Below are positions 13,332 to 64,000 of a stretch of DNA of 64,000 nucleotides, piece by piece. Origin of the DNA: a virus. The notes beneath the pieces were generated by a model. That model was not told where the DNA came from. It saw only the letters and a program-made list of their open reading frames with translations, and did no database searches. The stretch lies in IMG/VR virus record IMGVR_UViG_3300035680_001201, positions 1 to 64,000 of that record; one strand, written 5' to 3'. Each line of letters begins with the position of its first letter. Positions within the stretch are counted from its first letter, which is position 1. Made by a program: the position numbers and the translations under genes.

Positions 13332-13332
13332 T

Positions 13333-14056: not shown

Positions 14057-14080
14057 TACAAGACCTAATAATAAAAATAT

Positions 14081-14572: not shown

Positions 14573-14594
14573 TATAAAACATCTATTGTATTCA

Positions 14595-14627
14595 AACCTC
14601 TCAACTCAAACAGTTGGGAGGTTTTTT
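14595..14627 (+). terminator. Intrinsic terminator after the tail tube gene
   Basis: Stem AACCTCTCAACT (14595-14606) pairs with AGTTGGGAGGTT (14612-14623) around a caaac loop, with one G-T pair, followed by a T-run. Confidence 0.92.
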
Positions 14628-14638
14628 ATGCGGTATAC

Positions 14639-14646
14639 TATTTATA
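14639..14646 (+). promoter_or_regulatory. TATTTATA box before the small coiled-coil gene
   Basis: Perfect TATTTATA (context tactatttatacg), only four bases before the ATG at 14651 and directly after the tube terminator. No Shine-Dalgarno sequence can fit between box and start. Confidence 0.45.
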
Positions 14647-14650
14647 CGAT

Positions 14651-14998: not shown

Positions 14999-15062
14999 TA
15001 CTTAATTAAAATAACAAAAAGTTTTATTGAGATACTATATATTGTTACATTAAAGAGTTATT

Positions 15063-47954: not shown

Positions 47955-47969
47955 TATATATGAACAGTT

Positions 47970-48836: not shown

Positions 48837-48837
48837 T

Positions 48838-50097
48838 ATGAAATACACTGAAAAAGTTAAAAGTTGTAGAGTATCAAATGACCCATTGGTTTCATTGTTT
48901 ACTTTAGGCGATTTGTTTATATCAAACTTTCTCAAGGACCAACCATCGGATGACTATAGGTCGGAAATGAAATTGATGTATTCTCCTACATCAAAGTTGG
49001 TTCAGTTGGAACAAGGCGCAGATCCTAACAAAATGTATGGCCAATATTGGTACCGTTCCGGTACGAATCAGACGATGCGTAATCAACTTAAGAACGTGGT
49101 TGATAGTTGTATGATGGTTCATACTCCAACTGATAATCCACTATGGTTAGATATTGCGTGTAATGATGGAACATTGTTGAGTTATGTACCATCACCATAT
49201 TCACGTTTGGGTATTGATCCCGCCGACGATTCTTATACCAAAGAAAGTGTTAAATTTGCTGATCAAGTAGTTCAGGAGTATTTTTCAAAGAATACGTTTG
49301 ATCGAAGTATTTTTAAAGGACGAAAGTGTGATGTGATTACATGTATCGCAATGTTTTATGATCTTCCGGATCCAGTTGCTTTTCTAAATGATGTATATGA
49401 TGTGTTACACGATGAAGGTTTGTTTGTAGTACAAATGAGTTATACGCCGTTGATGGTTCAACAAATGGCATTTGACAATATTTGTCATGAACATTTGATG
49501 TATTACTCGTTACATTCATTTAAACATGTTATAGAAAAAGCCAAGTTTAAGATTGTAGATTGTGAGTTGAATGATGTTAATGGTGGATCTTTCCGAGTAT
49601 ACTTACAGAAAGATATTGCTAAGGTTACATCATTTGCAACTGCTCCATACCGTGATGTTGCACGTTATCGTATTAACTCTACTTTGGAGTATGAAAACAA
49701 GATTGGAGCAAATACAGTTGAGTTTTATATGAATTTCTATAAGAAACTTCAGGAGTTGAAGGAAAAAACATATAACTTTATCAAACAAGAAAAAGAAAAG
49801 GGTAAGAGCATTTGGGTCTATGGCGCATCAACCAAGGGAAATACTCTTCTTCAATATTTTGGATTGGATAAGACTTTGATTGATGGTGCAGCAGAACGTA
49901 GTCCATATAAGTTTGGACTAAAGACTGTGGGAACTGATATTACAATTTATTCCGAACAAGATATGAGAAAGGCTAACCCAGATTATCTTTTGATATTGCC
50001 ATGGCATTTCATTGATGAATTCAAGAGACGTGAGGCTCCATATCTAATGAGTGGAGGTCATTTTATTGTACCTTGTCCTGTATTTGAAATTGTATGA
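48838..50097 (+). CDS. Deoxysugar C-methyltransferase (NovU/TylCIII/TcaB9-like)
   Basis: A 419-residue protein with the three-part layout of sugar C-methyltransferases. The N-terminal domain is about 1-95; the SAM-binding core is about 96-260, with Leu-Asp-Ile-Ala-Cys-Asn-Asp-Gly-Thr; and the C-terminal domain is about 265-419, with Tyr-Gly-Ala-Ser-Thr-Lys-Gly-Asn-Thr. The catalytic region Ile-Cys-His-Glu-His-Leu-Met-Tyr-Tyr-Ser is intact. Family members normally bind zinc through two Cys-x2-Cys pairs at the N-terminus. Here the first reads Cys-Arg-Val-Ser and the second has no Cys, so the zinc site seems lost. It would add a methyl branch to a dTDP-4-keto-deoxysugar made by RmlA and RmlB. 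Its stop overlaps the rmlB start. Confidence 0.82.
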   Translation: MKYTEKVKSCRVSNDPLVSLFTLGDLFISNFLKDQPSDDYRSEMKLMYSPTSKLVQLEQGADPNKMYGQYWYRSGTNQTMRNQLKNVVDSCMMVHTPTDNPLWLDIACNDGTLLSYVPSPYSRLGIDPADDSYTKESVKFADQVVQEYFSKNTFDRSIFKGRKCDVITCIAMFYDLPDPVAFLNDVYDVLHDEGLFVVQMSYTPLMVQQMAFDNICHEHLMYYSLHSFKHVIEKAKFKIVDCELNDVNGGSFRVYLQKDIAKVTSFATAPYRDVARYRINSTLEYENKIGANTVEFYMNFYKKLQELKEKTYNFIKQEKEKGKSIWVYGASTKGNTLLQYFGLDKTLIDGAAERSPYKFGLKTVGTDITIYSEQDMRKANPDYLLILPWHFIDEFKRREAPYLMSGGHFIVPCPVFEIV

Positions 50098-51056
50098 CTA
50101 AAAAAAACATATTAGTCACAGGTGGATGTGGTTTTATTGGATCACATTTTGTTGAAAAGTTAATAAACAACCCAGACATTGGGTGTATTGTTAATTTTGA
50201 TAAAATGACATATGCTGCTAATCGTGAATTGGAATTTCATAAAGACGAACGATACAAACATTACATTGTTGATATCAACGACAGTGTTGCTGTTTATAAT
50301 GCGTTAAAGGAACATCAAATTACACATGTAGTACACTTTGCTGCTGAAAGTCACGTTGATAATTCAATTTACTCTCCTGATGCTTTCGTTGAAACAAACG
50401 TTGTTGGGACATTTAATTTGATGAAAGCTGCATTTGATTATGATAAACTTGAAAAGTTTATTCATATTTCAACTGATGAAGTATATGGATCTTTGAATAC
50501 AAAAGAATCTGCGTTTACTGTGGATAGTCCATATAGACCCAACAGTCCATATTCTGCTACAAAGGCTGGAAGTGATTTGTTGGTTCGTAGTTATTATCAT
50601 ACATACAAGTTTCCAACCATCATTACAAATTGTAGCAATAATTTTGGACCAAGACAACACTTTGAAAAGTTGATTCCAACGTGTATTAGAAAGTTGAAAA
50701 ACAATGAATCAATTCCAGTTTATGGAAATGGGTCCAATATACGTGATTGGATTTACGTTAAAGATCATGTAAATTGTATTTGGAATGTTCTTGAAAACGG
50801 AGATGTTGGAAATCAATACTTGATTGGCGGAAATAATGAAATGACCAATCTTGAATTGATTGAAAACATTAAGATTGCATATGAAGAAGTTACTAATACA
50901 AAAGTAGATTATGATTACATTCAATATGTAACAGATCGTAAAGGTCACGATTTACGTTATGCCATTGATATGTTTGACTATGAACAAAAGTTTGGTAAAT
51001 TACAATATTATAACTTTACAGAATCATTGAAACAGACTATTATCAGTTATCTATGA
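50094..51056 (+). CDS. rmlB: dTDP-glucose 4,6-dehydratase
   Basis: A 320-residue protein of typical RmlB build. Gly-Gly-Cys-Gly-Phe-Ile-Gly-Ser-His binds NAD. Phe-Asp-Lys-Met-Thr-Tyr-Ala matches the conserved 'Asp-Lys-Leu-Thr-Tyr-Ala' region. His-Phe-Ala-Ala-Glu-Ser-His-Val-Asp, the catalytic Ser-Thr-Asp-Glu-Val-Tyr-Gly, Tyr-Ser-Ala-Thr-Lys-Ala and Asn-Asn-Phe-Gly-Pro-Arg-Gln are also present. It converts dTDP-glucose to dTDP-4-keto-6-deoxyglucose. Overlapping starts tie it to the methyltransferase before it and the glycosyltransferase after it. An RmlC 3,5-epimerase is not present in the cassette, which argues against ordinary dTDP-L-rhamnose. Confidence 0.93.
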
Positions 51057-52378
51057 GTGAATTTTTTGAAACGACGTGGGACGAAAAGGAATATAAACAC
51101 AAAATTTTGGTTTGGCCTAATATCACATACTCTGATGATCTTGAAAAGGATTCATATGTAATTGTATTATCCAATATTATTCGTAGTTTAAATTCGATAC
51201 GGAATGATATATTCTGGACTATTGTTACACCCGGCCCCGTTAAATTGCTACAACATGAAAATACTGAACAGATCTTTTATAAATTGCCTACGTATCCGAA
51301 TTCAATGCGAATTCATTTTGATGTGGCTAAAGTGGCAGATATTCTTGATTTATATAACCAAGACTATGATGTAATTTATTCACATCTTCCCGAACATACT
51401 CTTCAACTTTCAAATTTTGTGTACAACAATGCTGGTATTAAGCCAAAGATTGTTGGATATTGTCATTGGTATGAAGTGGCTGAAAATACTGGATATCCTA
51501 AGAATGTATTTGATTTGAATGTTTTGGGAACTCTTGAAATGGAACAATGTGGAGTAAACTCACAATGGCTTAAAAATCTGGTTCTTGAAAGAGCTGAAGA
51601 ACGATTTAATATTTCGGTTGTAAAGAAGCTGAATCAGATAATTCAACCTCATTATCTTGGCACCGATAGTGACTTTGACGGATTGAGTCTAATTAACAAA
51701 TCTATTTTCTTCAATCATCGTCCAAATGAATATACTGGATGGAATGACTTTTTGAAAGTTATGGACAAGTTGTATGAAAAACGTCAGGATTTTACTGTAT
51801 ATGTAACATTGGCAGATGAATGTCGTCCATATATCAAGAGAGTCGAATTGGAACGTAACAAATACTATGACTTCATCAAACAAATGCATGTGGGTGTGGG
51901 ATACTTTCAAACATATTCCGCGTGGTCATTGTCAGTTACAGATGGTTTGAGTCGTGGCCTACCTTATTTGTTGCCAAAGAAATTGTGTTACCCAGAAATG
52001 GTTGGTCATGATTATCCATTATTTTATGAAAACGAAGCTGAGTTTTTGAATAAGTTAGAAGCAGCTTTGGATGACAAGTCATTCAAGAACAATTATTTGC
52101 CACTTTTGAAGAAGATTGTAAATGATCTTCAGTGGAAGAATACCGTGAGTTCTTGGTTTAATAACTGGGACATTCTCAATGAGTATGAAGGAATTAAACG
52201 TAGCAAATCGTATACTGATATTGTAAATTACATTAAGTCAAAACGTAGTGTATCAAAGAGAGAAATCTTGAATCATCTCAACTGGGGACGACAAATATCA
52301 TTTACGCCATATCGTAATGCACTAAGAGAAGATCCCAGAATTATATTGACCAAAGACAGGTATATTTACAAGGGATAA
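51053..52378 (+). CDS. GT-B glycosyltransferase with C-terminal winged-helix-like segment
   Basis: A 441-residue protein whose ATG overlaps the rmlB stop. Residues about 15-375 have GT-B features: an early Ile-Leu-Val-Trp-Pro strand; Tyr-Cys-His-Trp-Tyr-Glu in the acceptor domain; [11 protein letters not shown] opening the donor domain; and [11 protein letters not shown] near the donor site. It probably uses the sugar nucleotide made by the cassette before it. The last 60 residues look like a small winged-helix domain ([10 protein letters not shown]), an odd appendage for a transferase. Its 3' end overlaps the convergent minus-strand gene by 13 bp. Confidence 0.7.
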
Positions 52379-52666: not shown

Positions 52667-53011
52667 TTATCTAAAAAATTGTTTTACTATTTGTAGATAT
52701 ATAACAAGAGTTGCCACATAAATTACTGGAAAAATATAAATAGTATATAAAAATAGTGAGACTGTTAGTGTAAACCAAAAACCAATACACCATGGACAGT
52801 TAATTAGTTTTGTAAAAAAGTTTGGATATGACGATTTTAACCACGGTAAATACTCCAATGTAAAATCTTTGTTGTGTGCTGTTTCAAATTCATTTATCTT
52901 TAGAATTTTAGATAGTTTGAATAACTTTCCGTATTCAATAAATGCTTCAGTATGAAACCATACAATTAAAAATGCCACGCCCATGAAAATTGAGTTTAAT
53001 AAGTCTATCAT
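52667..53011 (-). CDS. Small membrane protein with Cys-Pro-Trp-Cys motif
   Basis: A 114-residue protein with hydrophobic segments at about 5-22 and 73-112. A Cys-Pro-Trp-Cys-Ile-Gly-Phe-Trp motif lies just before the second segment. This 'Cys-x2-Cys-x-Gly-Phe-Trp' pattern recalls DUF1360-type small membrane proteins found in phages and bacteria. Its ATG overlaps the stop of the upstream glycosyltransferase gene by four bases, so it belongs to the glycan operon. Membrane anchoring of glycan assembly or an unrelated envelope role is possible. Confidence 0.6.
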   Translation of the reverse strand: MIDLLNSIFMGVAFLIVWFHTEAFIEYGKLFKLSKILKINEFETAHNKDFTLEYLPWLKSSYPNFFTKLINCPWCIGFWFTLTVSLFLYTIYIFPVIYVATLVIYLQIVKQFFR

Positions 53012-53913
53012 ATTGATTTGAATGAGTATTGGTTTTTGTTAACAAAGTCTCTCAGGCAGTCGCCTAACGCTGCCTCTGCATTGCTCTTAAAGTTGTTTCT
53101 GTCTTCAAAATATGTAATGTAGTTTTTATATGGATTGTGTCTCAATAAATAGTTCTCAGCTACAATAATATTCTCCATCAAGTATTGTTGAAAATCTACT
53201 CTATTGAGTTTCATTATTTGAGCCGCAAACATAACATAGGTATCATCAACACCATACGGTCCCAGAACGTCTGGAATATCCGTAAACGTCAACAGATTGG
53301 AACTTATAAGGTTAAACCACCCACCACCAAATTTGGTAGGATCACAGTTAATTAAGTTGACATTACCACTATATGACTTACGGTTAACTTCAAAATATGG
53401 ATTGATAATGCGTTCACTTCCATATTTGTTGTTAATAAATTGGTGATTTACTAAATGATCCCACGTTTGATCCCAAATCTTGGTGATCTGAGGTGAAATA
53501 ATATAATATTTGTTCTTTACCTGAGTAGCACAGTGTATCGAATATGACAAAGTTGCTGGAGGGAATACCAAGTCTGAATCCAAGTATATAAATGCGTCTA
53601 CATCTTTACCGTATTTACGTATGCTATTACGACGTTTGTCGTTGATACCTCTACAGGTACCATGATCATCTATATCAAAGATATAGTTTCTTGCCCAACT
53701 GGTGTGAGTAACATACTTTGACAACGATGTGAACTTCTCAATAAAGAAATCTTTTGGAATTTTTGTTTTATTCCAATCAACGGTGTTCAAATTCAATGTA
53801 ACATCCAAGATGACTTCATGTGAATCAATCAGTTCTTGACTCAATACGGTTAACTGACGTTCAAATTCATCCAATTCGTGGGGAAGAAGGTGTGTAACAA
53901 TTTGTACTTTCAT
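53008..53913 (-). CDS. GT-A glycosyltransferase with Asp-Ser-Asp motif
   Basis: A 301-residue protein. Near 110 it has Ala-Phe-Ile-Tyr-Leu-Asp-Ser-Asp-Leu-Val, a GT-A metal-binding DxD motif. The Gly-Gly-Gly-Trp-Phe-Asn-Leu and Gly-Pro-Tyr-Gly-Val-Asp-Asp-Thr motifs further on suit an acceptor/catalytic region. No particular GT family is recognised. The gene lies 22 bp after a GT4 gene on the minus strand and is coupled to the membrane protein gene. It is part of the long glycan cluster. Confidence 0.68.
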   Translation of the reverse strand: MKVQIVTHLLPHELDEFERQLTVLSQELIDSHEVILDVTLNLNTVDWNKTKIPKDFFIEKFTSLSKYVTHTSWARNYIFDIDDHGTCRGINDKRRNSIRKYGKDVDAFIYLDSDLVFPPATLSYSIHCATQVKNKYYIISPQITKIWDQTWDHLVNHQFINNKYGSERIINPYFEVNRKSYSGNVNLINCDPTKFGGGWFNLISSNLLTFTDIPDVLGPYGVDDTYVMFAAQIMKLNRVDFQQYLMENIIVAENYLLRHNPYKNYITYFEDRNNFKSNAEAALGDCLRDFVNKNQYSFKSI

Positions 53914-53935
53914 AGTTTTACAGGTGTGTGATTAC

Positions 53936-54883
53936 TTACTGTGAGATAATTTGATTAACCACGTTCATATATTGTTTTACGACGTTTTCCCATGCAAATT
54001 TTGTGATTCCATATTCACGAATTGCGTCACGGTGTAACAAAGATTGTTGTCTATTTGTTTCAATTACACCTCGGATATAATTCAAATCATAAATTTTATT
54101 TTCTGGTACTACACTAATATATGGTTTTGACAAATCCAAATTGGCAATAGAACATTCTGAAATAACCACACCTAAACCTGCAATCAACGCTTCTTTAGTT
54201 ACAAGTGGATCTGCTTCACCGTCACTTAACAATATTAAGTTGGCATAATTGGTGAGATTGTCATACAATGTAGACTTATCCCATTCTCCAATATAGTTTG
54301 GACGAGAGAAATTAAATCGGTTATCATCTTTATTACCAATAAAGTCAATGTTATTGATGTTTTGATACATCCACTGACGTTTTCTATCTGTAATTTTAGC
54401 GAGATAAACACTCTTTTCGGGTTTAGATGGCGTTGATGTATATCGGAACATGTCTTGTCTTGCACCGTTACACACTACGTACAATCTATTTTCATTGGCA
54501 CCATATTGTTTATACACGTTTTTGATACCTTCTGACAAACAGATGACGTTGAAGTCTCCACGAAGGAATGCGTCAAAGATTCGAGCATATCCGCCGTAAC
54601 GATGTGGTTGTTCTAGGTAGCCATAATGGGTGGTTGCTGCTTTGTGTTTACATTTGATATACGGCAACACATCAAACAAGTCGTCGTATTGAAGATGTAC
54701 AAAGTCAGGATTATATTGATTAACTTGATCAATAATCTCTTGACGATTTTGTGTGTTGACAATTTGTACATCGTGACCAAGTTTTTTTAATTCGATGTTA
54801 TAATCCCATATCAGAGATTCTACAGCACCCCATCCTTTAGGAGGAATGGGCATAATTCCGGGTCCAATAATTGAAATTTTCAT
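53936..54883 (-). CDS. GT4-type glycosyltransferase
   Basis: A 315-residue GT-B protein. It begins Lys-Ile-Ser-Ile-Ile-Gly-Pro-Gly, followed by Pro-Pro-Lys-Gly-Trp-Gly-Ala-Val-Glu, the same acceptor-domain motif as at the N-terminus of the protein at 4807. The donor side has Tyr-Leu-Ala-Lys-Ile-Thr-Asp-Arg-Lys and a Ser-Asp-Gly-Glu-Ala-Asp-Pro-Leu...Lys-Glu-Ala region (Glu-x7-Glu type). It is thus a paralogue of the GT4 half of that fused enzyme. Its start overlaps the upstream FkbM gene's stop. Confidence 0.78.
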   Translation of the reverse strand: MKISIIGPGIMPIPPKGWGAVESLIWDYNIELKKLGHDVQIVNTQNRQEIIDQVNQYNPDFVHLQYDDLFDVLPYIKCKHKAATTHYGYLEQPHRYGGYARIFDAFLRGDFNVICLSEGIKNVYKQYGANENRLYVVCNGARQDMFRYTSTPSKPEKSVYLAKITDRKRQWMYQNINNIDFIGNKDDNRFNFSRPNYIGEWDKSTLYDNLTNYANLILLSDGEADPLVTKEALIAGLGVVISECSIANLDLSKPYISVVPENKIYDLNYIRGVIETNRQQSLLHRDAIREYGITKFAWENVVKQYMNVVNQIISQ

Positions 54884-55500
54884 ATATAAATGTCACAGTC
54901 GTTAATTCTTATATCAAACTTATAACCTCTCTCGGTCATATATTCACGATATGAGTTTTCATTAAAGATATTTTCTAACATAACTACTTTTGGTTTGAGT
55001 AAACAAAGTCCTTTCATGACTTCTATCTCCCAACCTTCAGTATCAACTGAAAGAATATCGAGTTGTTCGATATTCGCTTCTTTAATTATTGTATCTAAAC
55101 GACGTTGTTTAACTTTAATTTGGGTTTTATTTAATTTATTTACCCATCCATTCGATATTGACTGGTATGATTCTTTGATTTTTAATGATGAAAATGCGTG
55201 ATCGGTAACACTACCACCAGTGATGTGAACAATCGTAAAATCTACATTATCTTCATCAGTTTCAGACGCTGCGTATTCATATATTTCATTTCCAATATCA
55301 CGATGCATTTTAGCAAATGTCGGATTTGGTTCTACAATAACAGTTCTCCATTTGTTTAATGTAAAGTGACGAGATACAGATATAAACTCAGGAGTTGCAC
55401 CACCGACTTCAATCATAGTACCCTTGTAACTATAATCAGGAAAGTATTTTACTCTTAAAAATTGATCTTCTTTATGTTCTGCAAAAAATGATTCGTTCAT
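54880..55500 (-). CDS. FkbM-family methyltransferase
   Basis: A 206-residue SAM-dependent methyltransferase. The glycine motif Met-Ile-Glu-Val-Gly-Gly-Ala is near 30, with Ile-Val-Glu-Pro-Asn-Pro about 25 residues later. The FkbM signature Leu-Asp-Ile-Leu-Ser-Val-Asp-Thr-Glu-Gly-Trp-Glu is clear. FkbM-type enzymes O-methylate sugars or related hydroxyls, and often cap or decorate glycans. It is coupled to the GT4 gene that follows it on the minus strand. It is the second methyltransferase of the right-hand glycan region when read in transcription order. Confidence 0.82.
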   Translation of the reverse strand: MNESFFAEHKEDQFLRVKYFPDYSYKGTMIEVGGATPEFISVSRHFTLNKWRTVIVEPNPTFAKMHRDIGNEIYEYAASETDEDNVDFTIVHITGGSVTDHAFSSLKIKESYQSISNGWVNKLNKTQIKVKQRRLDTIIKEANIEQLDILSVDTEGWEIEVMKGLCLLKPKVVMLENIFNENSYREYMTERGYKFDIRINDCDIYI

Positions 55501-55535
55501 ATAACTATTTTTTATTATCTGTTGTAAATTATATT

Positions 55536-56312
55536 TTAATGTATTTTAAATTGGTTTTTGTCAGTTCTATGAGTGAACAATAATTTCCAAAATCTTAACA
55601 GTTCGTCATGATAATGACGACCCATTTCATTCATAATTTGTTTTTCAGTAGCACAATTTCCATATTTTTCTGGCCATTGACTTTTTGCAAGTTCATGATC
55701 CCATGACATTGATTTTGGATGAAATCTTTCTAATAGATATTGATAAACCGATATAGGACGTTGATATATTAATTTTTTTGAAACGCTGAATGTTGGACCA
55801 TGATCGTTGGTATATATTTTTCCCGGAAAACTACCTTTACCAAATATATGATTGTACCAATCGATATTTGAATCAGAATTAGATTTGTACCATCCTTTAC
55901 GAACGCCTTTGACATTATTAATGTTTACATCGATACATAACTTTTCTGGGACCGTACCATCGTGCCAATTATAACATCTTGAATCTCTCCCTATTTCTAT
56001 ATAATCATATTCGACGCAATTTTTTATTATATACGAAAAATCAAATCTAGGCGGTGGATTATACCAGTGAATTTTTGTAAAAACAGTTACATCATTCAAT
56101 GTATAGTAGTTGTTGATAATGTGTAACAAAAATGCATAATCACAACGTCCAATATTTGGAATATTAATATAACCATCCTTGACAAATGATTCGTCTATGT
56201 TTAAATCGTCGTTCTTTTTATAAATTATTAAATTACAGTTTTCAACATAATTTTTCCAAGTGAGGTTGTGAATGTCATTATAAAAAGAAGTTACTACATC
56301 TATTTTTTTCAT
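55536..56312 (-). CDS. DUF3431-like glycosyltransferase-type protein
   Basis: A 258-residue protein. After an initial Asp-Val-Val-Thr-Ser-Phe-Tyr-Asn strand it has Ile-Pro-Asn-Ile-Gly-Arg-Cys-Asp-Tyr-Ala-Phe-Leu. That leads into a helix with His-Ile-Ile-Asn-Asn-Tyr and a Val-Thr-Val-Phe-Thr-Lys strand, the pattern of DUF3431 proteins. A later Gly-Pro-Thr-Phe-Ser-Val-Ser-Lys and Arg-Pro-x-x-Val-Tyr-Gln-Tyr-Leu-Leu fit the same group. They are thought to be transferase-like. The ATG overlaps the upstream HtrL-like gene's stop. Confidence 0.58.
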   Translation of the reverse strand: MKKIDVVTSFYNDIHNLTWKNYVENCNLIIYKKNDDLNIDESFVKDGYINIPNIGRCDYAFLLHIINNYYTLNDVTVFTKIHWYNPPPRFDFSYIIKNCVEYDYIEIGRDSRCYNWHDGTVPEKLCIDVNINNVKGVRKGWYKSNSDSNIDWYNHIFGKGSFPGKIYTNDHGPTFSVSKKLIYQRPISVYQYLLERFHPKSMSWDHELAKSQWPEKYGNCATEKQIMNEMGRHYHDELLRFWKLLFTHRTDKNQFKIH

Positions 56313-57058
56313 ATTAAAGATTTCAATATTGGTAAATGTTTACTGTTCAATCTTACATAAATGTTAAATAAATAGGGATTACGTTTAAATATATATGCTA
56401 ATGCAATTTGTTCATTGTTAATCATATTTTGATCCAACATTTCTTCTTGTAAAAATTTAAGTGTTAAATCTGATACTTGAATGACATATTCACGTGGCCC
56501 ACCGAAGAAAGTGCCAACTAAAATACAATCTGATATCCATTTGTAGGTTTCGTCAATTGGAATACGGTTAGTATTCATATTCCCTTGAATTAAGAACTTT
56601 GAGGGTAGTTTATTTGAATTCGGAAACGTTAATGGTAATCCGTCAAAGAATCTGCTGCAACCAGCGTCCATCCAAAAAAAATAGTCTGAATTAAATGGAT
56701 TTTCTTCGATGGTACGTTTTAACCATTCAAACTTAGAATATTGAATGACACTGTACATTGGTAATACACATTCAACTCTATTAGGATCTTTGATTTTTTG
56801 TAGATACTCTGAATTTTTTAATATACTTTGAATCATTGTACATTTATTGTACAATGGAATTTGTTTTGTTGTAGTAACAATAACTTTAATGTTAGGTTTT
56901 TGAGGAATGTAAGGAACTACACCTTGTTCTGTATATATGACATAATTACACGACAATGATAAAGTTTCTGGAAGCCATTTTAGATAATCTTGAAATGACC
57001 TACCATCACCATTTTTTTCACGATTAATGTCATACAACGCTGTTACGATTGTTGTCAT
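56309..57058 (-). CDS. HtrL/YibB-like glycosyltransferase-type protein
   Basis: 249 residues from the ATG at 57058 (Met-Thr-Thr-Ile-Val-Thr-Ala-Leu-Tyr-Asp-Ile-Asn-Arg). A longer frame to 57169 would lie inside the upstream gene and adds unlikely sequence. The start, the Gly-Asp-Gly-Arg-Ser-Phe-Gln-Asp-Tyr-Leu motif and Tyr-Phe-Phe-Trp-Met-Asp-Ala-Gly-Cys-Ser are typical of the HtrL_YibB / WlaTC group found in lipopolysaccharide loci. The Trp-Met-Asp-Ala-Gly motif is probably the metal or donor site. It overlaps the next upstream transferase gene by 29 bp. Confidence 0.72.
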   Translation of the reverse strand: MTTIVTALYDINREKNGDGRSFQDYLKWLPETLSLSCNYVIYTEQGVVPYIPQKPNIKVIVTTTKQIPLYNKCTMIQSILKNSEYLQKIKDPNRVECVLPMYSVIQYSKFEWLKRTIEENPFNSDYFFWMDAGCSRFFDGLPLTFPNSNKLPSKFLIQGNMNTNRIPIDETYKWISDCILVGTFFGGPREYVIQVSDLTLKFLQEEMLDQNMINNEQIALAYIFKRNPYLFNIYVRLNSKHLPILKSLI

Positions 57059-57776
57059 AGAAATATTTAAATTGATGTACGAGTGGATGTGATGTTTTTT
57101 GCCAATATGGATTTCGATTACATTCAACGATCTCACTATTAAATACTTCTTGTTCTCCTTGCAATGCAAATAAAATTGGGAGAATCACATCATGCGCAAA
57201 AATAGCGTAAAAAGTTTTTGCAATACGTGGTAAAAAAGTTGGATCTTGTTCCATCACATACTTATGTGATTTCAAAAATGTTTCACAATGAATTATTGCG
57301 GGAGTTGCTCCCCAACAATCAATATCGATTGCACCCGATGTTTCTTGAAGTATTTTTCTTAGTGTCCATGGTAATCCGACGTTTATTCTTGATCCTAACA
57401 ATTTGGCACCGTCTGGAAAAGACAATTCGCCACGAACAAGAGTATCGGGATCCATCAATAATAAATAATCAGATTGACAATATTCTATGGCTTGTTTTAC
57501 ACGATTTAAAAAAGCGTTAGTTGCTACTAATATTTTTTCCTGAAAATGATATTCTAAAAAATTTTCGTGAGTTATTTTAGGAATGAAATACATTGTATCT
57601 TCTACATGATTGATACTAATATGGTTTAATTTAAGTAAATTACTATAATCCGAAGTTTTACTTTCGGTAGTAAGATAAATCTTTGTTGTCGGATATATTT
57701 CTCTAAAAGATTTTAAAGAATATTCTACCGCACGTACTTCATTATAACATGTAACTAAAACTCCAAACATGGTCAT
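57030..57776 (-). CDS. GT-A glycosyltransferase with Asp-Pro-Asp motif
   Basis: A 248-residue protein starting at the ATG at 57776; an in-frame ATG at 57770 is an alternative. It opens Gly-Val-Leu-Val-Thr-Cys-Tyr-Asn-Glu, as in GT2-like enzymes, and has Leu-Leu-Leu-Met-Asp-Pro-Asp-Thr-Leu-Val near 104, the likely DxD. Further on, Asp-Ile-Asp-Cys-Trp-Gly-Ala-Thr and Ala-His-Asp-Val suit an acceptor region. A specific family is not recognised. It lies 39 bp after a methyltransferase gene in the same direction. Confidence 0.68.
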   Translation of the reverse strand: MTMFGVLVTCYNEVRAVEYSLKSFREIYPTTKIYLTTESKTSDYSNLLKLNHISINHVEDTMYFIPKITHENFLEYHFQEKILVATNAFLNRVKQAIEYCQSDYLLLMDPDTLVRGELSFPDGAKLLGSRINVGLPWTLRKILQETSGAIDIDCWGATPAIIHCETFLKSHKYVMEQDPTFLPRIAKTFYAIFAHDVILPILFALQGEQEVFNSEIVECNRNPYWQKTSHPLVHQFKYFYDNNRNSVV

Positions 57777-57815
57777 ATCACGATATTATGAATAACGTTT
57801 TTAAATGAAGTAGTT

Positions 57816-58406
57816 TCATAGATTGGAAATAATATCCTCAGGAAATAAATTATCAAAATAATAATGATTTTTTTCAAGAGATGGATGTATCCACCAATCT
57901 TCAAATCCAACATTTTCTTCTTTTCTACCATTTTTACCTCTTGGAACTTTTACGTTGGATCCAACCAAATGATATCCCTTAGACAATAGAAATTCTCGTT
58001 GTCTCTTTTTATATTTATCCCCATATATATAAAAATCGTGTTCTATAGTAATTACATTAAAAGTATAATCGTTGTGGGGAAGAATCAAAAGAGCGTCCAA
58101 ACTTAATTCATCAATATCTAAAGACAAATAATCAATTGTTTTTGGAAAATTTTCTTGTTCAAAAACATTTTTGTAGTTTATCTTCAATGCGTCTTGATTG
58201 ATAAATTTACATGTTCTTGAAACATAACTTTGTGTGTATGATGGGTTAATTTCTACACAAATACCTCTCCATCCAAGAGACTCAAAGAAGTATGTATTGT
58301 TGGAGTTAATTGCACCACAACTTCCAATATCTAAGAAATAACCATTACGTTTTCCGTTTAGAATTTTGTGTACAAATTGATCTTGAAACGCGTCTGATTT
58401 AAACAT
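57816..58406 (-). CDS. FkbM-like methyltransferase
   Basis: A 196-residue protein. SAM-binding Phe-Leu-Asp-Ile-Gly-Ser-Cys-Gly occurs near 24-31, then Cys-Val-Glu-Ile-Asn-Pro-Ser. An FkbM-type Tyr-Leu-Ser-Leu-Asp-Ile-Asp-Glu-Leu strand follows, where the usual Glu-Gly is replaced by Asp-Glu. It ends with a region rich in Trp/His (Glu-Asp-Trp-Trp-Ile-His-Pro) usual for this subgroup. It probably O-methylates a sugar in the glycan built by its neighbours; it is 3 bp from the transferase gene upstream. Confidence 0.72.
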   Translation of the reverse strand: MFKSDAFQDQFVHKILNGKRNGYFLDIGSCGAINSNNTYFFESLGWRGICVEINPSYTQSYVSRTCKFINQDALKINYKNVFEQENFPKTIDYLSLDIDELSLDALLILPHNDYTFNVITIEHDFYIYGDKYKKRQREFLLSKGYHLVGSNVKVPRGKNGRKEENVGFEDWWIHPSLEKNHYYFDNLFPEDIISNL

Positions 58407-58409
58407 AAA

Positions 58410-59372
58410 TTATAAAATTGAAAATAAACTATTGATTCTGTTTATATATGTATGATTTTCTTTTACGTACAACATTGATTTTTTGATAAAATCATAATTT
58501 TTACGATTTTGCATACCTATACTAAAAAGTTCGGTAGGATCGGAATTGTATAAACAATTTCCTTCCATTTCATTGTATATTTCTTGAGAATTAGTTAATC
58601 CAATATGTCCATAACTGACGTTTTTGAATATTCTGCACGTAATTATGCCGGTCTTAACGTGTTCCGGTCCACGAATATCAATACCCAACAATGATTTTTG
58701 AACAAGTTCTTTTACTTTGTCGTCTGATATTGGATTTTTCCATGGATCGTTGTGATAGAACGTAATGTTATTGTGTTTACATTGTTGTATAAATGGAAAC
58801 CAATTACTCATATTTTCACATACGCCTGAATTTGAAAGACTTCCGCAGAAATAAATTGCGTTTTCTCTAGGAAGATAAACATCATCAAGATTAAATTCTT
58901 GTGGTAATAGATTTGTTGCCCAACTCAAATAAAATTTGTCAAAATCATCAATGGTATAATCAACATAATCGTTTTTGATACGTACTTTATCGTTGGTTTT
59001 TGGAATAAAATAACATGATGGTCCAACTTTTTGAGTTGTATTTTTGTCAACTGAATATTCATGAATGTGATCTTTGTGATTTTTTGCTACACATCTAACA
59101 TCAATATATCGTTTAACACCTGCATCTAAATACTTCTTTGGAGACGGACAATACATCACAAAGTATGTACTTGTATTATTTAGAGGAATGTTCTGATCAG
59201 CAAATCCTTCAGTGATAAAAATACAATTGGAATAGTCAAAATCTTTGGGATAATCTTTGTCATGAAACCAATGTACTTCGTGACCCATATGAGACGCTGC
59301 TTTGTAGTATGAAGAATGAACATACGAATGAGTATGTGAATAAAGAGGATGACCCCAAATAACTATTTTCAT
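58410..59372 (-). CDS. Glycosyltransferase-like protein (GT-B type)
   Basis: A 320-residue protein. It begins Lys-Ile-Val-Ile-Trp-Gly-His-Pro-Leu-Tyr. The C-terminal half has Leu-Leu-Gly-Ile-Asp-Ile-Arg-Gly-Pro-Glu and Arg-Ile-Phe-Lys-Asn-Val-Ser-Tyr-Gly-His-Ile-Gly-Leu-Thr-Asn. These resemble donor-binding strands of CgeB/GT1-like enzymes. A Tyr-Phe-Cys-Gly-Ser-Leu strand starts the second Rossmann domain at about 196. The N-terminal domain shows no known acceptor signature. Its ATG overlaps the stop of the GT6 gene upstream. Confidence 0.65.
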   Translation of the reverse strand: MKIVIWGHPLYSHTHSYVHSSYYKAASHMGHEVHWFHDKDYPKDFDYSNCIFITEGFADQNIPLNNTSTYFVMYCPSPKKYLDAGVKRYIDVRCVAKNHKDHIHEYSVDKNTTQKVGPSCYFIPKTNDKVRIKNDYVDYTIDDFDKFYLSWATNLLPQEFNLDDVYLPRENAIYFCGSLSNSGVCENMSNWFPFIQQCKHNNITFYHNDPWKNPISDDKVKELVQKSLLGIDIRGPEHVKTGIITCRIFKNVSYGHIGLTNSQEIYNEMEGNCLYNSDPTELFSIGMQNRKNYDFIKKSMLYVKENHTYINRINSLFSIL

Positions 59373-60079
59373 GTGAGTGACGCTCCTTTAAATCGTGGAT
59401 ATTCCACCATATTTTTATCTTTATGAACCATTAGTTTGTTAACAGGCAAATCCCAATGTTCTGGATATGACATACTAGGACTTAAAATAGCCGTATCGGT
59501 TCGATGATCAACTATAAATTTGTTTAGGTGAGATTCATCATGCCATACTGCAATGATATTGTTTTGAAGATCCGTACTGATGTTATTCTTCATTAAATTG
59601 ACCATATATTCGATGTGACTTCCTTTTGCACCCCATACACATCCTTGAACGTATACACAATTATGTTTTTCTGGAATATATGCGGTTGAATTAACATTAG
59701 TCTCGACTGGCCAGAACTTTTGATTTAAAATCACAGACGGATGACAAACCGCAAAATACTTCTTTTGTCCAACATCAAAATTACTCAATGTATCTACAAA
59801 TTCCATATCACTATCAATATAGAAAATATAATCATATTGAGACAACTCTTTTAAACATTCGGATATAAATTCAAATCGTTTGAGAGTAATATATGGCCAT
59901 GGTTCATGATTGATCTTGTACCACTTTATAGAATCATCAAACCAGTCTAATTTTTCATCGGTAAAGAAGTAAAAGTCTTTTTGAACATGTGGAATAAAAT
60001 ATTTTTGGATAGAAGTCCACAATGGATGTAGAAACGTTTTATATTTATTTGTGGCCAACGTAATAACGGCAATCTTCAT
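59369..60079 (-). CDS. GT6-family (ABO blood-group type) glycosyltransferase
   Basis: A 236-residue protein matching GT6 enzymes along its length. The motifs are Phe-Phe-Thr-Asp near 38; Trp-Pro-Tyr-Ile-Thr-Leu-Lys-Arg-Phe near 60; Tyr-Ile-Asp-Ser-Asp-Met-Glu-Phe as the metal-binding DxD; Gly-Cys-Val-Trp-Gly-Ala; and Trp-His-Asp-Glu-Ser-His-Leu-Asn-Lys, the acceptor/catalytic motif. Then comes Leu-Ser-Pro-Ser-Met-Ser-Tyr-Pro-Glu. GT6 enzymes are retaining alpha-1,3-Gal/GalNAc transferases. Most bacterial members have Asn-x-Asn in place of DxD, while mammalian ones and the GT6 of a marine T4-like cyanophage keep DxD, as here. The predicted linkage is alpha-1,3 to a beta-Gal or fucosylated acceptor. 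Confidence 0.85.
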   Translation of the reverse strand: MKIAVITLATNKYKTFLHPLWTSIQKYFIPHVQKDFYFFTDEKLDWFDDSIKWYKINHEPWPYITLKRFEFISECLKELSQYDYIFYIDSDMEFVDTLSNFDVGQKKYFAVCHPSVILNQKFWPVETNVNSTAYIPEKHNCVYVQGCVWGAKGSHIEYMVNLMKNNISTDLQNNIIAVWHDESHLNKFIVDHRTDTAILSPSMSYPEHWDLPVNKLMVHKDKNMVEYPRFKGASLT

Positions 60080-60082
60080 AAC

Positions 60083-60913
60083 TTAATAATTGGTCAGATA
60101 CTTGACATCTGTATAATAGGTATTTAACTGATCTTGATTCATATCACTCAGTTTTTTATATAAATCGTTGTTAGATTTAAAGTATGGGTTTTTGTCGCTG
60201 GAATCAGATCCACGACAATGTTCAACATGATATACAAATCCTTTATCAAGATGGGTAACCATAGTATCAAATTTTTTGAATCGTTCATATCGTTCACGAT
60301 CTTCTGGACCATATGAGATAAAATGTTCATTCTCCCAACCATACTTTTTATATGTGGAAGTATTAAAGAACTGACAGTGACCGTATTCCGAAATACAATC
60401 CGAATAATCATGAGAGGTAAGTTCCACAAGTGACCCTTGGTTTAATAACTTTTCTCTACCAGATGTGTTAACTTTCTTTTGAAACTTGCCTATTGCAAAT
60501 GGATAAACTAAATCATGATTTTGTCGGATGATCTTTTTGTACGCTTGTAGATATGATTCTATTGGAAGAATTACATCTGCATCATAATTAACTGTTATTG
60601 TTGTGTTTGATAACGATAACATTCGGTTTAAGTATCTTGTTCTATGAAACGAGTCATCTGGTACGTTTTGATGAATGTATGTTACGTCATCTTTGATTAC
60701 CGATGGTATAACCGCTTCTTTTGAACATTCATATACGATGATGTTTGTTTCAAAATTACGACGTAAATATTCATATACAATAGTGAAGTTTTTCTTTCGG
60801 TCTTCACTTTCAATACAAACGGGTATGATAAATGTACAATCTTGTAATGGAATTAAACCATCTGTGATTGTTTTCGCTTTTTGTATTGTTTGAATTTCTT
60901 TCGGAATTTTCAT
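60083..60913 (-). CDS. GT-A galactosyltransferase-like enzyme
   Basis: 276 residues from the ATG at 60913 (Met-Lys-Ile-Pro-Lys-Glu). A longer frame to 60976 runs into the upstream gene and is rejected. It contains Cys-Thr-Phe-Ile-Ile-Pro-Val, then Val-Asn-Tyr-Asp-Ala-Asp-Val-Ile as the DxD. A Tyr-Gly-Pro-Glu-Asp-Arg-Glu motif matches the 'Gly-x-Glu-Asp' acceptor site of galactosyl and chondroitin-type GT2/GT7 enzymes. A later Tyr-His-Val-Glu-His-Cys-Arg-Gly follows. The ATG overlaps the stop of the fucosyltransferase gene. Confidence 0.75.
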   Translation of the reverse strand: MKIPKEIQTIQKAKTITDGLIPLQDCTFIIPVCIESEDRKKNFTIVYEYLRRNFETNIIVYECSKEAVIPSVIKDDVTYIHQNVPDDSFHRTRYLNRMLSLSNTTITVNYDADVILPIESYLQAYKKIIRQNHDLVYPFAIGKFQKKVNTSGREKLLNQGSLVELTSHDYSDCISEYGHCQFFNTSTYKKYGWENEHFISYGPEDRERYERFKKFDTMVTHLDKGFVYHVEHCRGSDSSDKNPYFKSNNDLYKKLSDMNQDQLNTYYTDVKYLTNY

Positions 60914-61725
60914 ATTACAATCCAACCGGGAACATATAAATCTTTTGTGTTTAACGGAACATTTGGACCAAACCATCGTGATGGAGCAATAACTTTTTTA
61001 TTTGTATTTACATTTAACCACGCACCCCACCAACTAAATGTACTGTTAGCAATAATGTTATGATTACATAGTGTCATAAGACACATATCAACAAACTGAT
61101 TGTGAGATTCTGATATAAAAAAGTTATCACTTCCTACAAATGTAGACTTTGCCCATTCAATATCATCAGATACAACAATGAAATTGTACGACTTATCCGT
61201 GAAATGACTTAATGCATTTGTATAATAGTTTAAATCACATGTGCCGTGATGTTTATATTTTAAATAATCACCTCGACGAACATGGATTGCAACCGTTTCA
61301 TATTCTTGTTTATCTTTGAGATATGAATTTGCAGTATTAATGATTTCTGGTCTAAACGTGAATTCTGAACGTACCGATGATTCAATGTGTTTAAAATACT
61401 TTTCCGTTTGAAAGTATCCATTTAAATGTACATTATCTCCCGTGTTAAAAAATTGGGGAATAAAATGATAGTTAGAATATTCTTCATTGATAATATTGTA
61501 CTTTTCATCACAATGTAAGGCCGACAATTGAAATGGCTTTGTTAAAACCAATGTATTTTTATTGATTTCTTCGTCGTCTGTAAAATCATTCCATGAAATT
61601 TTATTACCATTATAGTAATTAATTCCATATAAACAGTTTTGTTTAGTTGCAATACCCATTAATGATGCGTATTGAAACATTTGATTACCAAACCGCCCAT
61701 TCGTTCCAATAGTTATTGTGATCAT
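60910..61725 (-). CDS. GT11-family alpha-1,2-fucosyltransferase
   Basis: A 271-residue protein, the usual bacterial GT11 length. It begins with the GT11 hallmark Gly-Arg-Phe-Gly-Asn-Gln-Met-Phe-Gln-Tyr-Ala. The GDP-fucose motif His-Val-Arg-Arg-Gly-Asp-Tyr is near 150, and Asn-Ser-Thr-Phe-Ser-Trp-Trp-Gly-Ala-Trp-Leu near 228. It would transfer fucose alpha-1,2 to a terminal galactose, making an H-antigen-type end, which is a natural acceptor for GT6 enzymes. GDP-fucose must come from the host or from genes outside the window. It overlaps both neighbouring genes by four bases. Confidence 0.9.
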   Translation of the reverse strand: MITITIGTNGRFGNQMFQYASLMGIATKQNCLYGINYYNGNKISWNDFTDDEEINKNTLVLTKPFQLSALHCDEKYNIINEEYSNYHFIPQFFNTGDNVHLNGYFQTEKYFKHIESSVRSEFTFRPEIINTANSYLKDKQEYETVAIHVRRGDYLKYKHHGTCDLNYYTNALSHFTDKSYNFIVVSDDIEWAKSTFVGSDNFFISESHNQFVDMCLMTLCNHNIIANSTFSWWGAWLNVNTNKKVIAPSRWFGPNVPLNTKDLYVPGWIVI

Positions 61726-62375
61726 GTTGCTCTGTAATTGTCTTCTGTTGAGAATTCACTGATATATCGTTTATTATCTTCTCTCTGTTTTTTAATTGTT
61801 TTATTATGAAACAATGACAACTCTTCCATAGCCGGAATACGAGTAAATTCTTTAAATCCTACAATTGTTTCATGTAATTTACGATCCCACTTAATATTAG
61901 GTAAGTTTTTGTAAATACGTGATTGATAGTCTGGCCAATTAATACGACCTTTGTCATCAACTCGCCATCCGTAATTTCTAACATCTTCTTGAGTAACTCC
62001 ATAAAATGCATTAACTCTAGGAACCCAAAACATTTCACATGATGGATTTGATTTTAATAATGTGTATAAGTTTACCAACAATATTTCATTAGGAAGTTCA
62101 TCTGCATCTATTTGAAATACATATTCACCATCACATTGTCGTGTTCCATAAGTTTTGTGTGCACCATAATCTTTATTGAGATGGTGTGCAACCAATTTAA
62201 CACCAACTACTGATTGATATTCATGTAATACTTCTAAAGTAATTGGATCGGTAGAATAATCATCTAATACTACAATTTGATTTCCGTCTGAGTACTTTAA
62301 TAATAGAGATAAAAGGGTGCGCAATTGTGCACCCTCATTATGACATGTAACTAAATAAGATATAAATGGTATCAT
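61722..62375 (-). CDS. GT2-family glycosyltransferase
   Basis: A 217-residue GT-A enzyme. It starts Tyr-Leu-Val-Thr-Cys-His-Asn-Glu-Gly, has Val-Val-Leu-Asp-Asp-Tyr-Ser-Thr-Asp and Phe-Gln-Ile-Asp-Ala-Asp-Glu (DxD). It then has Trp-Val-Pro-Arg-Val-Asn-Ala-Phe and Arg-Lys-Leu-His-Glu-Thr-Ile, the arrangement of GT2 sugar transferases that initiate or extend surface glycans. It is somewhat short and lacks membrane segments, so it is probably soluble. It overlaps the GT4 gene upstream (four bases) and the fucosyltransferase gene downstream. Confidence 0.82.
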   Translation of the reverse strand: MIPFISYLVTCHNEGAQLRTLLSLLLKYSDGNQIVVLDDYSTDPITLEVLHEYQSVVGVKLVAHHLNKDYGAHKTYGTRQCDGEYVFQIDADELPNEILLVNLYTLLKSNPSCEMFWVPRVNAFYGVTQEDVRNYGWRVDDKGRINWPDYQSRIYKNLPNIKWDRKLHETIVGFKEFTRIPAMEELSLFHNKTIKKQREDNKRYISEFSTEDNYRAT

Positions 62376-63691
62376 ACCGATATCTTAGAAACTGGTGGAA
62401 GTGATGGAAGTTTTAATTGTGGAATCACAATTTTTTGTTCAATTGCAAATTGAGGAACGTATTTGTCAAGAATTCCATGTAGTACTTTATCCATAGATTG
62501 TGTAGAAAAAGATTCAGCATTTCGTTTAGCAAGTTCCAATGCGTTTGTTTTCGTTTTGTGATTCAGACTAAAATAAATCTGTTTCATACGTTCTTCTGCC
62601 AAACTATATGATACTGTAAACCATGCTGATTCTTTGATTAACCATTGATTTACAGATGCCGGATTGATTGTATCAACTTTACCCGGCAATAAACATTCTT
62701 TATTGGAATTCAAGAAATCCAAATGTCCACTCCAATCAGATGCAAGAATTGGTTTACCACTGAGCGAGGCTAACAACAGAGGATGCCCAAATCCTTCACC
62801 GTGTGTAAAATTTATATGACACTTCACTTTTTCATGATTGAAAAGTGCATTCATTTCAGTGTCAGTAAGTTCTCCATGAATCAAATATATGTTAGGCTTA
62901 TCACCCTTAATTTGTGATTCAATTGATTTGATTTTATTTAATATTTCATCTTTATCTATCTTGGAATAATTAACACCACTTGTTTTTAAGATCAAACATG
63001 GTTTTTGAATACGATCTTTAAATACGTTAATAAAGGTTTTAATCAAGTTGCCAATATCTTTGCGGTCATGATATGGATTCGAATGTGTCCATTGACCAAC
63101 AAACAAAAATGCAAATGACTCTGGAATTGTTGACATAATTTGTTCAACCGATTGAACTTTTTCATTCGTAATTTTATATAGATCAGTATTGGCTCCCCAG
63201 AAACACACTTCCATGGGTTTTATGTTACGTAGTTGTTCTTTACGTCCACTTCCGTCTTTATATTCCTTAGTATAGTCTGCATCATCAAATACCTTCTTGG
63301 AATGACGAGATGTAACAATGTTCATGTCCATTTTGTTTAGACCTTCAATCCATTCTCCTGCAGCTGCCGTGGTTTCAATTCCAGCCGTCATTCCAATATT
63401 GTACTTGCCAATAGGTTTAAACTCATTTGGAATTGATATTTGAATAAACAGATCTGGTTGACGGTTAATAGGTTCTTTCAACATCTTATCAAATAACGCA
63501 AGGTTGAGTGGATCGTTATAATCCAAATCATCTTGAAAACGTTTCACGGGATTTGCACCCCACTTGGTGTTTGCAATTCTTAAATCGTACTTATCGTAAC
63601 GTAGAATACTTTTAGCAACATCTTTTGCCCAGTCACCGTAGCCACTTCGACTAAAGACTGGTCCTTGTATAACACATAACGGTTTACTCAT
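62372..63691 (-). CDS. GT4-type glycosyltransferase
   Basis: 439 residues from the ATG at 63691; a TTG at 63703 in frame is less likely. It opens Cys-Val-Ile-Gln-Gly-Pro-Val-Phe-Ser-Arg-Ser-Gly-Tyr-Gly-Asp-Trp, as in GT4 'Gly-x-Gly' acceptor loops. The donor half has Leu-Phe-Val-Gly-Gln-Trp. A His-Gly-Glu-Gly-Phe-Gly-His-Pro-Leu-Leu-Leu-Ala donor-site motif near 300 matches the Glu-Gly-Phe-Gly-x-Pro of GT4 enzymes. It is the first glycosyltransferase of the minus-strand run, 1 bp after the dUTPase gene. A single long transcript thus joins nucleotide metabolism with glycan genes. Confidence 0.82.
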   Translation of the reverse strand: MSKPLCVIQGPVFSRSGYGDWAKDVAKSILRYDKYDLRIANTKWGANPVKRFQDDLDYNDPLNLALFDKMLKEPINRQPDLFIQISIPNEFKPIGKYNIGMTAGIETTAAAGEWIEGLNKMDMNIVTSRHSKKVFDDADYTKEYKDGSGRKEQLRNIKPMEVCFWGANTDLYKITNEKVQSVEQIMSTIPESFAFLFVGQWTHSNPYHDRKDIGNLIKTFINVFKDRIQKPCLILKTSGVNYSKIDKDEILNKIKSIESQIKGDKPNIYLIHGELTDTEMNALFNHEKVKCHINFTHGEGFGHPLLLASLSGKPILASDWSGHLDFLNSNKECLLPGKVDTINPASVNQWLIKESAWFTVSYSLAEERMKQIYFSLNHKTKTNALELAKRNAESFSTQSMDKVLHGILDKYVPQFAIEQKIVIPQLKLPSLPPVSKISV

Positions 63692-63692
63692 A

Positions 63693-64000
63693 TTAATTTC
63701 CAAAAAGTTTGTTGTCTCTTTCTTTAATCACTTCACTATATTTTTTAATGTTAGTATCAAAATTTGCTTCTTTTATTTTAAGCAAATCTTCAATAGTTTT
63801 TCCTGATGTAGTTGGTGTTGTAGTTGACTTGTTTATGTCAGTACTTCCAAATCCACCAACACCACGTTGAGTCGAATTCAAATCATCAACCTCGATAAAA
63901 CCTCCTACTGCGGTGCCACATCCTTCTATAATAATTTGAGCAATAGCGGTTTCTTTATCATCCTTAATAATTGGTAATTTAACGGGTTTATCACCTAGAT
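63693..64000 (-). CDS. dut: dUTPase, C-terminal part (gene continues past the right edge)
   Basis: The minus-strand frame is open to the window edge. The visible part has Lys-Glu-Thr-Ala-Ile-Ala-Gln-Ile, corresponding to the dUTPase Arg-Ile-Ala-Gln region. It then has the C-terminal Gln-Arg-Gly-Val-Gly-Gly-Phe-Gly-Ser-Thr motif V that closes over the nucleotide in trimeric dUTPases. Motif V is followed by about 50 further residues, Thr/Ser-rich then helical, an unusual C-terminal extension because motif V normally ends the protein. dUTPase removes dUTP and supplies dUMP for dTTP synthesis, which also feeds RmlA. The N-terminal motifs are outside the window. Confidence 0.82.
   Translation of the reverse strand, partial: LGDKPVKLPIIKDDKETAIAQIIIEGCGTAVGGFIEVDDLNSTQRGVGGFGSTDINKSTTTPTTSGKTIEDLLKIKEANFDTNIKKYSEVIKERDNKLFGN

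Follow-up and report, generated by a model that had tools for sequence, protein, structure and literature searches.

The window analysed here comprises positions 1-64000 of the 126,384-base IMG/VR virus record IMGVR_UViG_3300035680_001201, from an uncultured, water-borne phage, and carries two sets of genes: a minus-strand island of glycosyltransferase (GT) genes, running from 63703 down to 52667, and, at the window's other end and outside the stretch covered by a preliminary description of this DNA, a giant collagen-like gene accompanied by a gene for a TibC-type protein O-glycosyltransferase. It is the collagen-like gene and the TibC-type module, not the island, that form the unexpected part of the locus. 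The preliminary description noticed neither these genes nor the part played by the dTDP-sugar block beside the island, nor a second glycan region farther along the record. The remainder of the record was covered in pieces (L002-L005), the relatives G003, G004 and G006 were compared in pieces, and a near-identical longer contig (G001) contributed 20 kb (L018), of which 13.5 kb lie past the start of the window. The record's DNA polymerase was closest to that of Microcystis phage Mel-JY01 (PP395634; 45%), thus the host is likely a freshwater cyanobacterium. The three genes at the collagen-like end are as follows:

3-2312, plus strand: 3' end of the giant collagen-like gene, the proposed glycan acceptor (PF01391, 2.6e-32).
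2345-4804, plus strand: GT4-containing protein of 819 amino acids (aa), a conserved neighbour of the TibC-type gene (PF00534, 3.8e-8).
4807-6903, plus strand: GT4 domain fused to a C-terminal TibC-type protein O-glycosyltransferase domain, 698 aa (PDB entry 4rap, TibC, 1.9e-69; TIGR04414).

In G001 the collagen-like frame was open over bases 1-15825 and encodes a protein of at least 5,275 aa, among which are 1,353 Thr and 1,358 Ser; of its 1,460 Gly-X-Y triplets, 1,141 are Gly-Thr-Ser, and the longest run comprises 402. The open reading frame (ORF) at 387-2312 is merely the 3' part of this frame, and an ORF at 13-372 was rejected as a gene, since it reads the collagen repeat in another frame. 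We infer that the product is a virion fibre because its gene adjoins tail sheath and tube genes. With ~0.29 nm per residue, the standard rise of collagen, such a fibre would be roughly 1.2 micrometres long if triple-helical throughout, subject to the errors that assemblies of repeats can contain. The same order was found in Mel-JY01, whose host is Microcystis elabens: a giant GSS/GTS collagen-like frame is followed by one structural gene and then by a GT4+TibC-type gene, with the TibC-type domain at 7249-8427. The Mel-JY01 collagen-like gene (L037:1-3049 and L039 from record 187687) spans the origin of its record and is annotated there as hypothetical proteins on the minus strand, which is the wrong strand.

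The TibC-type gene lies two genes 3' of the collagen-like gene, and its domain at 5905-6903 scored 325.9 bits against the NCBIfam equivalog TIGR04414 (cut-off 200). TibC, a bacterial protein O-heptosyltransferase, needs its iron-finger cysteines (Cys339, Cys342, Cys358 and Cys370), the catalytic Asp110, Lys230 and Trp305 (PMC4358343). All four cysteines were kept in the window's domain, in Mel-JY01 and in 55/55 aligned viral sequences; D110, T226, K230 and W305 were all kept in the window's domain, with D, K and W present in 55/55 viral sequences and the T226 position occupied by Thr in 50 of the 55 and by Ser in five. The adenine-contacting R286, which bears on ADP-sugar specificity, was replaced by Thr in the window and by Ile in Mel-JY01 and was Arg in 11 of the 55, so the way in which the donor binds probably departs from that of ADP-heptose; at the position of TibC's Pro300 the window's domain has Gly. 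As judged from these alignments, the phage domain has the catalytic core of the TibC/AAH family of bacterial autotransporter heptosyltransferases (BAHT), with which it shares the iron-finger cysteines, the catalytic Asp, the sugar-phosphate contacts and a gene position beside the presumed acceptor. On the other hand, the phage domain is fused to a GT4 domain, carries the Arg286 to Thr and Pro300 to Gly changes, and has a collagen-like protein as its neighbour in place of an autotransporter. Donor and acceptor thus probably differ from those of the family, and we therefore do not call the enzyme an autotransporter heptosyltransferase. Separately, a second TibC-type reading, 32% identical and with one in-frame TAG in the match, was seen beside the first in G003:102860-103690, G006:4926-5741 and G007:65394-66209.

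Glycosylation of a collagen-like repeat by a neighbour-encoded enzyme has a precedent in the spore glycoprotein BclA3, in which Thr of the repeat is glycosylated by SgtA, encoded beside bclA3 (PMC7157674). SgtA differs in being an O-GlcNAc transferase that uses UDP-GlcNAc, in serving a cellular spore coat and not a virion, and in acting on GPT instead of GTS triplets. A literature search for TibC-type enzymes or GTS repeats tied to phage collagen-like fibres found none.

The pairing of TibC-type and collagen-like genes extends to many other viruses. A profile of the TibC-type domain matched at least 565 viral contig loci, of which 80 were kept. After dereplication, and with loci of at least 10 kb counted, collagen-like runs (10 or more triplets) were present in 40 of 51 TibC-type loci, as compared with 0 of 39 helicase loci of the same lineage (p=8e-16) and 5 of 37 tail tube gene loci (p=1e-9), both being roughly matched controls. 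In the collagen arrays at the TibC-type loci, Ser or Thr occupied 84% of the X and 74% of the Y positions, and Pro occurred in 0.4% of the triplets. A homologue of the 819-aa GT4 protein was found in 66/80 TibC-type loci; a search of the C-terminal half of this protein (2345-4804) against PDB returned nothing. Besides this GT4 partner, the only island-type GTs within 10 kb of other viruses' TibC-type genes were HtrL (6), the GT4 of 62372 (4) and FkbM (1), thus the island and the TibC-type module are not physically linked.

The island itself consists of 13 transferase-type genes and one small membrane protein gene, listed here in the order of the run:

62372-63703, minus strand: GT4-type glycosyltransferase, 438-443 aa (phrog_2170 glycosyltransferase, 6.6e-14; Pfam GT1 weak at 0.0019, below the Pfam cut-off).
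61722-62375, minus strand: GT2 glycosyltransferase, 217 aa (PF00535, 7.8e-13, reaching the curated Pfam cut-off).
60910-61725, minus strand: GT11 glycosyltransferase of the fucosyltransferase family (PF01531, 3.8e-34, reaching the curated cut-off; phrog_2644, 3e-78).
60083-60976, minus strand: GT7C/galactosyltransferase-like protein, both matches weak (phrog_15655 of unknown function, 1.9e-66; phrog_1721, 4e-4; PF02709, 0.015, below cut-off).
59369-60079, minus strand: GT6 glycosyltransferase (PF03414, 1.1e-24, reaching the curated cut-off; phrog_3317, 3.6e-56).
58410-59372, minus strand: probable GT-B-fold glycosyltransferase, no family model (AlphaFold model, pLDDT 69, pTM 0.70).
57816-58406, minus strand: FkbM-like methyltransferase, below cut-off (PF05050, 19.7 bits vs 22.7).
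57030-57776, minus strand: probable GT-A glycosyltransferase, weak (PF00535, 0.0099, below cut-off).
56309-57064, minus strand: HtrL_YibB-family protein (PF09612, 4.6e-17, cut-off reached).
55536-56312, minus strand: DUF3431-family protein (PF11913, 2.1e-7, above cut-off).
54880-55500, minus strand: FkbM methyltransferase (PF05050, 6.6e-16, reaching the curated cut-off; TIGR01444, 48.9 bits vs 37.7).
53936-54883, minus strand: GT4-type glycosyltransferase (phrog_33732 glycosyltransferase, 1e-114; below the Pfam cut-off).
53008-53913, minus strand: putative GT-A enzyme (YLDSDLV, a DSD-type motif, only).
52667-53011, minus strand: small membrane protein, DUF1360 (PF07098, 4.1e-5, above cut-off; two hydrophobic helices).

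The island is a single operon-like run on one strand, with a 4-bp overlap at 6 of its 13 junctions and the remaining junctions within ~40 bp. The ORFs lay where the preliminary description had placed them, its gene list proved essentially correct by Pfam and PHROG, and its operon reading holds, most junctions being either overlaps or gaps of a few bases. Two FkbM methyltransferases had been claimed, of which one is clear (54880-55500) and the other falls below cut-off (57816-58406); the statement that each enzyme belongs to a different family is nearly true, two of them being GT4-like. About eleven of the enzymes are sugar-transferring. Most genes matched a family, one was assigned to GT-B by structure, and three were weak or motif-only (57816-58406, 57030-57776 and 53008-53913).

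For the less certain members, further comparisons were available. The model of 58410-59372 had GT-B enzymes as its top matches in VIA-align, over ~250 residues (Z up to 12.9, root-mean-square deviation 4-5 A), while Foldseek with the same model returned nothing at E <= 0.001; taking the VIA-align set as evidence of fold only, the model is consistent with a GT-B fold. The protein is also 64% identical to the product of gene 99204 of DSL-LC02 (OR032571, Kyanoviridae), an isolated freshwater Synechococcus phage, and that gene is located in the phage's GT cluster. Likewise, 57816-58406 was 52% identical to a DSL-LC02 protein annotated FkbM, and 57030-57776 was 47% identical to DSL-LC02 96705, a gene within a GT run. 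Pfam and PHROG searches gave no convincing match for 53008-53913, which is 89-95% conserved among the relatives, and its structure model (pLDDT 37) was not used as evidence; a PDB search with sequence profiles of 58410-59372 and 53008-53913 returned nothing meaningful. The GT11 gene has homologues in 102 phage records, mostly of cyanophages, and 53936-54883 is 47-53% identical to proteins of 16 cyanophage records, its N-terminus being 40% identical to the GT4 part of 4807-6903.

Twelve of the 13 island genes have homologues in the same order in G003 and G006 (median identity 84%), and G004 retained 9 of the 13 with the middle exchanged; the DUF3431 protein (55536-56312) had no homologue in G003, G004 or G006. 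Since this order is kept in relatives, the island is not a scatter of single acquisitions, an outcome that the preliminary description had named as refuting its reading. The relatives also hold genes absent here, encoding UDP-galactopyranose mutase, WcbI and TylF-type proteins. The UDP-galactopyranose mutase gene, which sits inside the relatives' islands (L013:16446-17531, also in L009 and L015), is cleanly missing from the window at ~53914-53935.

A near-identity search of the island among INPHARED phages gave no match, and more distant counterparts were found in two isolated cyanophages. DSL-LC02 has a contiguous GT run at 91.9-102.4 kb that corresponds to the middle of the island: seven island genes and the C-methyltransferase have homologues at 92.7-102.4 kb (33-64% identity), and the run includes FkbM, a sugar C-methyltransferase and GDP-mannose dehydratase. 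It differs in gene order, in lacking the head GTs, DUF3431, DUF1360 and 53008, and in the absence of a TibC-type gene. In Mel-JY01, the island's head (split GT4, GT4 and GT2) keeps its gene order and lies near the genes for a PD-(D/E)XK nuclease and PolB, the second GT4 (62372-63703) being 38% identical to Mel-JY01 84944, while most of the island is absent. Because the head and its flank match Mel-JY01 and seven other genes match the DSL-LC02 cluster, the island is, by these comparisons, a mosaic of two cyanophage-type clusters and, taken alone, of a known kind. In a short viral contig (L017), the same GT families were seen in another order beside ORFs that by eye resemble a cyanobacterial outer-membrane porin and a 2Fe-2S ferredoxin; at the corresponding place, DSL-LC02 has ferredoxin and 'outer membrane protein' genes.

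We propose, with a probability of about 0.55, that the island serves to elongate and vary the glycan in a phage-encoded protein O-glycosylation system that coats the phage's own virion, most likely the giant (Gly-Thr-Ser)n collagen-like fibre. Of the three targets put forward in the preliminary description (fibre, capsid and host envelope), the circumstantial evidence is now strongest for the virion fibre, and the link between island and fibre is inferred. The process could run as follows: i) the fibre, whose gene is present, would be made in the host cytoplasm; ii) the TibC-type domain, homologous to TibC and with its key residues kept, would set the first sugar directly on Ser/Thr, with no lipid carrier; iii) soluble GTs encoded beside the TibC-type gene and in the island would lengthen the chain, and the FkbM enzymes would methylate it; iv) the block adjoining the island, which encodes RmlA, RmlB, a C-methyltransferase and an RmlD-like reductase, would supply dTDP-6-deoxy-sugars as presumable final products; v) the swapping of mid-island genes observed between close relatives would alter the glycan. 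The benefits might be a stiffer or stabler collagen that is nearly free of proline, and surface variation against recognition by hosts or competitors. A defined heteropolysaccharide of about ten sugars, as suggested earlier, does not follow from the gene list: the number of GTs gives no chain length, no polymerase- or flippase-like polytopic protein was found in the record, and gene content shifts between close relatives, therefore the data agree no less well with several short or variable glycans.

Several points weigh against this proposal: i) some 46 kb separate the island from the fibre genes, and an action of its enzymes on that fibre is conjectural; ii) TibC acts on autotransporters, not on collagens; iii) the sole visible fibre ends of the close relatives G003 and G007 are rich in GAQ/GDK and not in GTS; iv) the controls of the TibC-collagen association were only roughly matched in phage lineage and habitat; v) related GT clusters occur in Kyanoviridae that have no TibC-type gene, for example S-CAM9 and Bellamy, thus the island is independent of that enzyme; vi) the virion of this virus is known here from its genes alone; vii) the record is a genome fragment of 126 kb in which no head genes were recognised, and a flippase or polymerase may sit in the missing part. 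DSL-LC02, whose collagen-like fibre genes (with GTQ/GTT triplets) adjoin mannosyltransferase (GT) and FkbM genes elsewhere in its genome in the absence of a TibC-type gene, fits a general link between fibres and GT clusters, as one case.

Among the alternatives, the best surviving one is that the island remodels a surface glycan of the host, so that later phages do not adsorb (superinfection exclusion), with the TibC-type/collagen module being separate. This is the usual reading of related GT genes in aquatic T4-like phages (PMC7029224), it accommodates the cyanophages that carry GT clusters without a TibC-type gene, and the GT2 weakly matches GtrB-like families of O-antigen conversion. Nevertheless we regard it as unlikely. 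Flippase or polymerase genes, which the preliminary description had suggested seeking beyond the window, were not found: by a simple hydropathy count, the 126-kb record, which lacks part of the genome, encodes no protein with more than four hydrophobic segments, and the sole small four-helix protein (record 109299-109637) had no Pfam match. The features of gtr-type O-antigen conversion (a GtrA flippase and a membrane-anchored GtrB) were likewise not recognised in this incomplete record, and the GT2 at 61722-62375, with 0 hydrophobic helices by hydropathy and hence none of GtrB's membrane helices, is by this prediction not a full GtrB-like enzyme. Moreover, eleven enzymes would presumably be of little gain to a lytic phage for such a purpose.

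Still less likely is that the island glycosylates other proteins of the virion, such as capsid and tail tube, as in mycobacteriophages. There the acceptors are the C-termini of capsid and tail tube proteins, and fewer GTs are involved. Any virion protein would suit soluble cytoplasmic GTs, and phage virion proteins that bear glycans are documented in Mycobacterium phages, on subunits of the capsid and of the tail tube, according to work cited in PMC12619734; a Ser/Thr-rich fibre beside a dedicated protein O-glycosyltransferase is nonetheless the more obvious acceptor. Hypermodification of phage DNA against restriction is highly improbable. In its favour, DNA-modifying phage GTs are known (work cited in PMC12619734), the many GT-B enzymes with which the model of 58410-59372 aligns include the alpha- and beta-glucosyltransferases of T4, and a thymidylate-synthase family gene is present in the record. 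Against it, GT2, GT6, GT11 and FkbM are families that assemble glycans, the GT-B alignments do not single out the T4 enzymes, and the number and exchange of the enzymes are excessive for modifying one base.

Aquatic phages commonly carry GT clusters, which are usually taken to alter host lipopolysaccharide or protect DNA (PMC7029224; PMC10202952). In many viral contigs a TibC-type enzyme is encoded next to collagen-like genes rich in Ser/Thr, which offers a concrete and testable alternative, namely that a phage glycosylates its own fibre. Extending the fibre-glycosylation proposal beyond this virus, we tentatively suggest, at somewhat less than even odds, that a widespread class of aquatic phages carries a dedicated module for protein hyper-O-glycosylation (TibC-type enzyme, GT4 partner and Ser/Thr-rich, almost proline-free collagen-like fibre) that would give the virion a mucin- or collagen-like coat, in some perhaps with micrometre-long fibres, and that large, exchangeable GT islands, this one included, diversify this coat. 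If true, this would explain a role for many 'auxiliary' GTs and also how proline-free phage collagens could be stabilised; Mel-JY01, being an isolated phage, makes the idea testable now.

Adjacent to the island and converging on it is a five-gene, plus-strand sugar block at 47112-52378, in which RmlA and RmlB both exceed the NCBI equivalog cut-offs; upstream, the island is joined by a dUTPase gene of the same minus-strand run:

47112-47954, plus strand: RmlA, glucose-1-phosphate thymidylyltransferase (TIGR01207, 390 bits vs 361).
47970-48836, plus strand: RmlD-like reductase (PF04321, 3.9e-22; TIGR01214 below cut-off).
48838-50097, plus strand: sugar C-methyltransferase (PF08484, 1.5e-42).
50094-51056, plus strand: RmlB, dTDP-glucose 4,6-dehydratase (TIGR01181, 376.5 bits vs 365).
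51053-52378, plus strand: uncharacterised protein of 441 aa (no Pfam match; kept in G004 at 89%, absent in G003 and G006).
63693-63998, minus strand: dUTPase, full gene 63693-64268 in the record (phrog_135, 1.4e-10; PF00692, 19.7 bits, just under cut-off).

The dUTPase was only 35-38% identical to the relatives' counterpart, with neighbouring genes at ~80%, and by this comparison looks as if it had been replaced inside the operon. Past the window, the minus-strand run goes on to ~67.0 kb, through the dUTPase and a split GT4 up to a PD-(D/E)XK nuclease gene of Mel-JY01 type. The split of this GT4 over two adjacent genes (L002:4265-5236 and L002:5238-5789) is kept in close relatives and in Mel-JY01.

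A second glycan region was found at 70.6-92.8 kb of the record (L002:10655-18041 and L003:1897-12813), encoding WavE-like proteins, nucleotidyltransferases, a DegT aminotransferase, an acetyltransferase (GNAT), GH130, GT25, DxD and DUF5672 proteins. It is far more variable than the island, with 8/22 and 6/22 genes shared with relatives, and most genes at 84.4-91.4 kb are missing in close relatives. Among its genes is a RuBisCO-like one (record 71558-72766; L002:11558-12766; Pfam RuBisCO_large, 6.5e-28; best PDB match a RuBisCO, 5e-31), which had no relative among 50,697 INPHARED phages; its K-x-D-E metal-binding stretch is apparently kept, and a 78% relative is present in G006. Elsewhere in the record, the thymidylate-synthase family protein (L004:9883-11067) has ~120 residues more than the Pfam profile, and the corresponding stretch of G006 is much longer.

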